Assembly (NCBI GenBank): GCA_034620365.1
Contig: JAQGEQ010000219.1
Location: forward strand, 62,001 to 126,000
From: Pegea sp. RAD2-039
Taxonomy: Eukaryota > Chordata > Thaliacea > Salpida > Salpidae
Reading direction: 5' to 3'
DNA length: 64,000 nucleotides
Shown piece after piece: positions 5,661-7,996 of the stretch; position 1 is the first letter of the stretch, and each line of letters starts with the position of its first letter. A model generated the notes under the pieces. That model was not told where the DNA came from. It worked only from the letters and a program-made list of their open reading frames with translations, and did no database searches. A program made the position numbers and the translations under genes.

Positions 5661-6003
5661 CAAAGTTTACATTTTTTTTTCCTTTATTTTGTCGAATTAT
5701 ATTTATATCGTATCAAATTTTTAATTCATAATTTATGTTCAGTATATACCTCTACAAGTGTTTTTATTCTTTCTGTGTGAATCTTAATTTGTGATACCTA
5801 AGACCTTCCAATTATCTGCCTGCTTCTAATATTGGGTTTTTGTTGAGTTTGTGACTACTACCACATTGAATGAAACCAATTTTTTAAGAATTTTGCAAAT
5901 TTTCATTAAAATATTGATTTTCATAAAAAGCCATTTTGTTTCAAAACATAAAATCAAATGCTAATTTCTAAATTCACTTTTGACCTCAACAAAATAGAAA
6001 AAA

Positions 6004-6396
6004 ATGTCAGAAGAAAATAAAAAGTCTAAATTTTCTTCAAATGTTCGAAAATTTCTTTTTTTATCTAGTGTTGGTGTTTTTGCCAGCATTGGTGGTTTTA
6101 GTATGGTAATTAGTAAGTCCAGAAAGTCAAGCCCAGCAGATTTTGATAAGGGTCTTTTAATGGATAATGGATCAAAGCTGGCCATGAGAGCTCTTGGTAG
6201 AGCTACAATTTATTCTGTTGGAGGCTTTTCAATTTTTTGTTTTTCTATTTGGCAATTGATGGGTGTTAAAAGTTTAGATGAATTTACTAAAAAAATGCAA
6301 TCGATAATGCCAAAGGTTCCTCCTGCTAAAATTTCAGAAGACAAAAGAAGAAATTGGGAAGATATATTTGCTGAAATAAAGAAAGAAGAGAAATAA
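6004..6396 (+). CDS. TMEM242: TMEM242 homologue, two-pass mitochondrial inner-membrane protein
   Basis: This is a single-exon gene of 130 residues, close to the size of human TMEM242. Transmembrane segment 1 is FLFLSSVGVFASIGGFSMVI (about residues 18-37). The conserved loop follows (SPADFDKG, then GSKLAMRALGRATIYS), then transmembrane segment 2 (VGGFSIFCFSIWQLMGV). The family motif LDEFTKKMQSIMPKVP comes next, then a charged tail. In the family TMEM242 assists assembly of ATP synthase and complex I; that role is family knowledge, not seen here. The start is the only ATG before TM1. An AATAAA signal begins 5 nt after the stop, and the SelL start codon follows 61 bp after the stop, which suggests an operon-like pair. 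Confidence 0.88.
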   Translation: MSEENKKSKFSSNVRKFLFLSSVGVFASIGGFSMVISKSRKSSPADFDKGLLMDNGSKLAMRALGRATIYSVGGFSIFCFSIWQLMGVKSLDEFTKKMQSIMPKVPPAKISEDKRRNWEDIFAEIKKEEK

Positions 6397-6457
6397 GTTG
6401 AATAAAATTCTTTGTAGAAAATTGAAACTTGTTATTTTTATAGAAGTTTTATTGTAA
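6397..6457 (+). promoter_or_regulatory. Intercistronic spacer with poly(A) signal and unpartnered 3' splice site
   Basis: Only 61 bp separate TMEM242 and SelL. AATAAA lies at 6401-6406. A pyrimidine-rich acceptor (TGTTATTTTTATAG) ends at 6443, 14 nt before the SelL ATG, with no matching donor in the spacer. This is the layout expected for trans-spliced polycistronic units, in which the upstream cistron is polyadenylated and the downstream one receives a spliced leader. Confidence 0.6.
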
Positions 6458-7893
6458 ATGAAAATAGAAATTTTGATTAAAAATCTTCAGGAGTTTTTGG
6501 ATACTTCACAAGAAGTTAAAACAACTCTGGAAGAAGAATTCGAAAGTTAGTTTAAAAAGTTCATTTATTAAAAAAAGTGCTTTAATTGAAATTAAACTTT
6601 TCAAAACTACTTTTGTTAATTTTTTAGAGTTTCAAAATGTTGAAGATTTAATCAAAAACAAGAAATTTTCTGTTTTAAATGGCTTAAAGGAATCATACAA
6701 ACAAATGTTTATTCATTTGAATATTTACAGCAGAAAAGATTTAGAAGAATTATTTCAAAATTTTTCTACAAATGAATCTGTTAATCATTTAATTGAACAA
6801 TTTTTTGAATTTGAAGTAAGATTATTAAACATTTGAAAATCAAATAAAAAGTTTATTATTAACTAACTATTAAATTAGAATGAGTTTGCATTTTCATATA
6901 ACAATTGGTTTATTCATCTAATCATTCTTGTTTATTCTGTGAAAAAAGTTTTTATCAAAAATTAATACTTATTTTAAGGTTATAAAACTTATAAATAAAC
7001 TAAACCCACAAACTAATTTTCTTTTTATTTAAAATTCTTAATTTAAAATGATTGTAAACATAAACAATCTTTACTTTTATATTAATTTTATTTATGGCAT
7101 TTTTTTCAGAGAAATTTGAACAATTTTTTGGAAATTTTGGATAAAAATTTTCCTCAAAATGTTGCCCAAATTTCAACCAATCAAAAATTTCCATCAAATT
7201 TTTATCTACAAGAAGTTTTAAGTGGGAGAAACTGCCGGAGTAACAACTCATTGTTTTTCCCATATCTCAACAATCATTGCATAGTGATTCTATTACGTCA
7301 TTTTGCGTGATTACCATGACGTCAACATGTTGCTGATCTTCATCTAATCCGAGTAAACTCTGAAATGATTCTCAGTGTTTCCAACTAAAACTATGACAAT
7401 TTCGAAGGAGGAATTAGAAGAGGAAAGCTGTTCGGTAGTCATAGTAACATTTGGCGATCGTGAAAACGCTCTAAAGTGGAGAGAAGAGATGAAAGTCGAC
7501 TTCCCGATGTTCATTGATGAGAAACGAAACTTTTATAAGACCCTGGGATTTAATTCTTCGATTTCAAAAGTAACTTACGGCTTTCAGGGTTTCCAAACTA
7601 ATTTTTTTTCAAAATTCAGTCGTTTAACACTTCTATCTACTGTTACTATGGAGCTGCTCTCGCATCTGGGAAATCCCCTCCAAAATTTGTCGAAGGCGAT
7701 GACGCTTTTCAGGTGACCTTTGACCCTTGCTTATAATTTCGCGTCATGGCGTCATTTACAGATGGCAGGTGATATGGTGGTGACGCGTGCTGTTGAAGAC
7801 GTTATTGTGTCGCATATTCACAAGAGCCAGTCGTCAGACGATCGACCCACAATTCCGTTTTTGATGAAACTTCTTAAAAGTTTAAACCATTGA
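6458..7893 (+). CDS. SELENOL: Selenoprotein L (UxxU redox motif, peroxiredoxin-like fold), 6 exons
   Basis: This is a thioredoxin-fold selenoprotein related to the PRXL2/AhpC-TSA family. SelL is known from aquatic animals and carries two selenocysteines as UxxU. Exons are 6458-6545, 6628-6815, 7110-7352, 7408-7569, 7620-7712 and 7762-7893, giving 301 residues with consistent phases. The strand before the active site reads IVILLRHFA, followed by TGA-L-P-TGA at 7308-7310 and 7317-7319 (U159 and U162), then RQHVADLHLIR. The next exon continues EELEEESCSVVIVTFGDREN and KVDFPMFIDEKRNFYKTLGF. The C-terminus carries EGDDAFQMAGDMVV and SSDDRP. The frame continues as helix sequence right after the TGAs, which argues against a pseudogene. 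A SECIS lies 42 bp after the stop. About 90 N-terminal residues before exon 3 form an unassigned extension. The gene is the downstream cistron of the TMEM242 pair. Confidence 0.9.
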
Positions 7894-7918: not shown

Positions 7919-7996
7919 TGAAGATTATTTTTTAATGAAAAGTTTTTCCGAAACTGTTTTTGTTGCAGAGGAAGAACTTGGAAAAAGTTTAAATAT
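7919..7996 (+). promoter_or_regulatory. SECIS element of the SelL 3' UTR
   Basis: The non-Watson-Crick quartet is ATGA (7935-7938) against GGAA (7980-7983, fitting KGAW). Between them a 10-bp helix forms from AAGTTTTTCC (7940-7949) and GGAAGAACTT (7970-7979), with one G-U pair. The conserved AAA sits at the start of the apical loop (7951-7953), 12 nt after ATGA, which is standard SECIS spacing. A weaker AT-rich lower stem flanks it. Confidence 0.85.

Follow-up and report, generated by a model that had tools for sequence, protein, structure and literature searches.

A probable selenoprotein L (SELENOL) gene with two in-frame TGA codons at its redox site in a compact bilaterian genome

Introduction

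The stretch of DNA analysed here (64,000 nucleotides, "the window") raises the question of whether a reading frame that is interrupted twice by TGA, at 7308 and again at 7317, belongs to a broken gene or to an intact one in which both codons specify selenocysteine (Sec). The original prediction favoured the second answer, namely a selenoprotein L (SelL) gene with a UxxU motif hidden behind the two TGAs, and each of its main elements (the gene model, both Sec codons, the SECIS element and the family) has held in the analysis described below. Ordinary annotation would split a gene of this kind, as two stop codons lie nine bases apart on the active site; direct reading of the raw sequence, as this case shows, can recover it. 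The gene also adds a bilaterian with a compact genome to the distribution of SelL and offers an animal host for tests of diselenide chemistry, while leaving knowledge of SelL itself unchanged.

SelL is recorded for Amphimedon, Trichoplax, Nematostella, Capitella and Branchiostoma, and not for Lottia, in Table 1 of PMC3473315; its occurrence in invertebrates is also given in PMC2874816, and it is missing from the table of families that PMC3828610 gives for three flatworms. In PMC2397514, a diselenide between the two Sec residues is stated for known SelL, and marine bacteria are named for SelL-related proteins. UxxU motifs in peroxiredoxin-like proteins of marine microbes are likewise in print (PMC2398784 and PMC13188914). 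Among the titles listed for the selenoprotein literature of rotifers and Brachionus, there was none on SelL.

Gene model and near relatives

Both TGA codons are present in the frame RHFA-TGA-LP-TGA-RQH (Table 1), as had been predicted. When GT/AG splice sites around the proposed borders were tried, six in-frame models were obtained whose only stop codons are these two TGAs and the terminal one, and one of the six is the previously proposed 301-residue model, with U159 and U162, in which six exons are joined in frame across four introns of 49-82 nt and one of 294 nt.

Table 1. Features of the putative SELENOL gene, in window coordinates
Feature	Position	Strand	Details
Exon 1	6458..6545	+	residues 1-29, ends in phase 1; GT/AG model; P0001 starts at residue 14
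Exon 2	6628..6815	+	residues 30-92; GT/AG model; P0001 identity 52/63
Exon 3, both putative Sec codons	7110..7352	+	residues 93-173; GT/AG model; P0001 identity 61/81, with W at each TGA
TGA read as Sec, U159	7308..7310	+	opposite the first CxxC cysteine in alignments with SelL-related proteins and PGF synthase
TGA read as Sec, U162	7317..7319	+	opposite the second CxxC cysteine in alignments with SelL-related proteins and PGF synthase
Exon 4	7408..7569	+	residues 174-227; GT/AG model; P0001 identity 50/54
Exon 5	7620..7712	+	residues 228-258; GT/AG model; P0001 identity 30/31
Exon 6, true stop TGA 7891-7893	7762..7893	+	residues 259-301; GT/AG model; P0001 identity 40/43
SECIS, form 2	7926..7995	+	ATGA core at 7935, 10-bp helix AAGTTTTTCC/GGAAGAACTT, GAAA apical bulge, CTG/CAG mini-helix, 3' GGAA

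The choice between the six models is settled by P0001, a JGI-sourced protein of 289 residues from a related species, encoded on a 1635-base contig, which was the sole match among 193 candidates in the initial search of proteins. P0001 reads EEEYQKFQN over the joint of exons 1 and 2 and LIQ-EELEEQS over that of exons 3 and 4, and thereby selects the 301-residue model. It spans all five joints without a gap at any of them, the one inserted residue falling inside exon 3, and is 87% identical to the window protein over residues 95-301. The first 13 residues of the window protein are absent from P0001, and of the 29 residues of exon 1 as a whole 13 are identical. Behind the TGAs, in exons 4-6, 120 of 128 residues are identical; this best conserved region is what would be expected if the sequence 3' of the two codons were translated. 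At the TGA sites themselves P0001 reads RHFAWLPWRQ, with W at both positions, which is as expected if TGA had been written as Trp by a gene caller that uses TGA=Trp, with TGG possible in principle as P0001 was seen as protein alone.

Another protein sourced from JGI, P0002 (117 aa), is identical to P0001 from residue 189 of the latter to its end, apart from 16 added residues placed exactly at intron 5. P0002 retains intron 5 and has lost intron 4, and the coexistence of a removed and a retained intron points to contigs derived from RNA. It begins at the first Met downstream of both TGA sites, and this start suggests a stop-like codon upstream. A protein search with residues 1-158, in which 275 candidates were scored and for which P0001 was too long, found no relative cut at the first TGA at E <= 0.001.

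Family and fold

Residues 146-293 match the NCBIfam model NF040769, "SelL-related redox protein", at E 3e-31 and 108 bits, which is under the cut-off (120) of what is a model for prokaryotic annotation; P0001 scores 96.8 bits with the same model. The AhpC-TSA_2 domain (PF13911) is recognized over its cut-off of 27, with 41.1 bits and E 2.6e-10. The window protein resembles the NF040769 proteins in sharing their domain, with their CxxC aligned to its UxxU and several of them looking Sec-containing, and differs from them in its lower score and in its identity to relatives, 20-35% where given among the matches listed.

A bait-assisted search, in which the 7995 candidates sharing the most words were scored and no protein over 289 residues could be returned, retrieved 249 proteins at E <= 1e-5, and 120 of these were listed. 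When the listed proteins were rescored with the window domain alone, all 120 matched at E <= 10 (for a set of 120 sequences), the best 40 at E <= 4e-14. Ten of the 120 were scanned, and NF040769 was the best model for every one of them and over its cut-off in eight. In the 118 listed relatives other than P0001 and P0002, the Sec columns hold Cys/Cys in 70, a share that is biased upward because the query alignment contained four invented CxxC bait rows; a further 35 start behind the motif, 6 start between its positions, and the remainder carry W at the first position (3 proteins) or other letters (4 proteins). The homologues aligned at U159 and U162 thus include SelL-related proteins with Cys there, in agreement with the SelL-type assignment that had been proposed. 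The motif context LPURQHVADL of the window protein resembles LPCRQHIADL in P0011, a protein over the NF040769 cut-off.

The 41 of 118 SelL-related proteins (P0003-P0120) that start at or behind the CxxC/UxxU site suggest that many of them are Sec proteins with a late annotated start; Sec in peroxiredoxin-like proteins of this sort has been described before (PMC2398784). Misreading of TGA codons would give rise both to such starts and to the W at the first position in a few relatives, which makes Sec likely in many members of this group, and start choice alone could mimic the pattern.

Two of the relatives carry informative names, one from Anaerolineae and one from Actinomycetota, and most of the others are without an organism name, so that the word "bacterial" for these relatives rests on the two named matches and the NCBIfam model. 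SelL had been described in the prediction as a rare family from aquatic animals; the SelL type stands, and the restriction to animals does not, as SelL-related proteins extend beyond them. A tblastn search in plasmids and phages gave no match, and two pattern scans of genome contigs matched 43 and 126 stretches, none of which was confirmed.

Structural comparison leads to the same superfamily. An AlphaFold2 model of P0001, built from an alignment of 63 sequences, has a mean pLDDT of 77, with ten-residue means of 72-96 from residue 101 onward and of 42-69 over residues 1-100. Its C-terminal part adopts a peroxiredoxin-like fold in which the motif (residues 147-150 of P0001) stands at the start of helix 148-159, whereas confidence in its N-terminal helices is low. 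The best PDB match in Foldseek is human prostamide/prostaglandin F (PGF) synthase, at E 3.8e-10. This enzyme (PRXL2B, PDB 9us9/9usa) has the same fold, and its C44 and C47 align with U159 and U162. It differs from the window protein in having Cys rather than Sec, in its length of 198 residues and in lacking the N-terminal stretch. With UxxU in place of CxxC and a phmmer E value of 8.9e-5, the window protein falls outside PRXL2B; the genome has a separate PRXL2B-like gene (L001), with the motif CPVC.

The complete peroxiredoxin-like fold of the original prediction is accordingly found in the ~190 residues at the C-terminus, preceded by a helical stretch from residue 1 to about residue 100. In Pfam, residues 18-99 have a weak match to Not3, at E 0.086 and below the cut-off, which was set aside. 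The 118 relatives retrieved, at 124-238 residues, have no comparable N-terminal stretch, and since the search was limited to proteins of at most 289 residues these short proteins are no test of it. That the stretch is a lineage-specific helical domain of ~100 residues, through which the diselenide enzyme of a phylum where SelL is undescribed would acquire a new partner or location, is a speculative idea that we regard as rather unlikely.

SECIS element and selenocysteine machinery

A SECIS element had been predicted to follow the gene, and a form 2 element with its core parts present has its ATGA core 41 nt 3' of the stop codon (Table 1). Twelve nucleotides separate the ATGA core from the AAA, the ten-pair helix contains one G-U pair, and GA is present on the 3' side. 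The Rfam model SECIS_1 (RF00031) scores the element at 28 bits, under its gathering score of 35, with E 0.021 for 5.1 kb searched with 4227 families, or ~5e-6 for SECIS_1 alone; a scan of the window at the default gathering threshold gave no match. The core hairpin folds as expected at -13 kcal/mol, a value equalled in 3 of 200 shuffles, and for a 70-base fragment an alternative fold is better by 1 kcal/mol. A loose SECIS pattern has three matches on the plus strand of the window and none on the minus strand, against 2.6 expected per 64-kb strand. A whole-genome search with SECIS_1, which scored 133 of the 3168 candidates from its first look, gave four matches; none of them exceeded the gathering score, and the SelL element was not among them. 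What makes the element convincing is its placement, 41 bases past the end of a reading frame that contains two internal TGAs.

The assembly that holds the window (105.7 Mb in 387 contigs) was searched for tRNA-Sec, SepSecS, EFSec and selenophosphate synthetase (SPS). A tRNA-Sec was found at 79 bits and called SeC(tca) by ARAGORN; SepSecS is represented by six exon matches and EFSec by a match to the fourth domain of eEFSec. SPS is of the Sec type, with TGA at the Sec site (GLKG-TGA-GCKVP), and stays under the selD cut-off because it was matched exon by exon. Downstream of the SPS gene there is a SECIS-like element by our own looser pattern, for which Rfam returned nothing at E <= 10. Taken together, these four components indicate that the host very probably decodes Sec.

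Several observations were made in passing. At the SPS locus (L025, G000:C3:2349200-2355200), a first exon with Sec lies at 177-390 and a predicted alternative start with its own exon at 537-790, where Ala takes the place of Sec (SLHGAACKIP); both alternative exons end in phase 1 ahead of an apparently shared exon, an arrangement that resembles the SPS-Sec/SPS-Gly gene of ascidians. The residues named for the Sec site of SPS in PMC4561486 are Thr, Gly, Leu and Arg, and "alanine" is absent from the main text of that source. The tRNA-Sec model has 37 further matches of 37-46 bits, many with the same score, clustered on one contig (G000:C225) and present on others, perhaps an array of serine- or leucine-type tRNA. 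A single miR-124 match, with one mismatch and a hairpin and none in the reversed control, presumably marks the genome as bilaterian; a rotifer host would be a speculative choice, and a search of the assembly for COX1 gave no match.

Alternative explanations and proposed function

The two in-frame TGAs could be accidental stop codons in a decaying gene of the PRXL2 type, and the contig does hold, at another place, an incomplete copy limited to exon 1; decay is nevertheless very improbable, as the exons past the TGAs are the best conserved against P0001, the interruptions are TGA alone and occur only at the two catalytic positions, and both SECIS and Sec machinery are present. We give equally little credence to the notion that alternative splicing removes the TGAs and yields mainly an isoform free of Sec. 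Short introns and the retained-intron variant P0002 in the relative would accord with flexible splicing, but skipping of exon 3 would delete the active site, and P0001 keeps the whole segment between the joints, including the part that corresponds to 7297-7375 up to the joint, whose removal had been put forward as the observation that would count against the gene.

Somewhat less remote, and still improbable, is membership of another peroxiredoxin-like selenoprotein group (SelU/PRXL2A-C) in which the second Sec was gained independently. The distant match to PRXL2B fits this origin, as do the 12 bits by which the protein falls short of the NF040769 cut-off. Its 108 bits with the SelL-related model are, on the other hand, twice the 55 bits of the genome's own PGF-synthase-like paralogue, and the motif context it shares with P0011 is that of a protein over the cut-off. 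Pseudogene, splice-out and SelU readings were all rejected, on the conservation of P0001 past the TGAs, the retained segment and the NF040769 score.

We therefore consider it highly probable, as judged from sequence, that a bilaterian animal has at this locus a functional SELENOL gene in which both UGAs would be recoded as Sec by way of the SECIS element. It resembles the SelL of fish and invertebrates in having UxxU in a peroxiredoxin-like protein, a SECIS in the 3' UTR and an animal host, and is, as judged from the described features of animal SelL, a further member of an already described family. The spliced mRNA would retain both UGA codons, and the 3' UTR SECIS, together with host tRNA-Sec and EFSec, would direct Sec insertion at each. 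The predicted product of 301 residues would consist of the helical N-terminal stretch followed by the peroxiredoxin-like domain (AhpC-TSA_2/PRXL2), in which U159-L-P-U162 opens the active-site helix. We infer Sec insertion and, from the analogy to SelL (PMC2397514), a diselenide in this protein, whose two Sec residues might cycle between diselenol and diselenide; its role would be that of a thiol/selenol oxidoreductase in thiol-dependent redox reactions, as reported for SelL.

Neighbourhood of the gene

Upstream of SELENOL lies a DUF1358 gene, which we take to be TMEM242-like. From its stop to the SelL start there are 61 bases (6397-6457), with AATAAA and two T-rich tracts ending in AG between them, a spacing like that of operons and compatible with trans-splicing; no match with at most three mismatches was found to a spliced leader of the bdelloid-rotifer pattern. 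A block of 605 bases (window 5931-6535), comprising the DUF1358 gene and most of SelL exon 1, recurs as an inverted repeat copy with 96.4% identity (L019, in the region of G000:C127:135017, minus strand). No further SelL exons were matched at this copy, in which DUF1358 keeps an intact reading frame.
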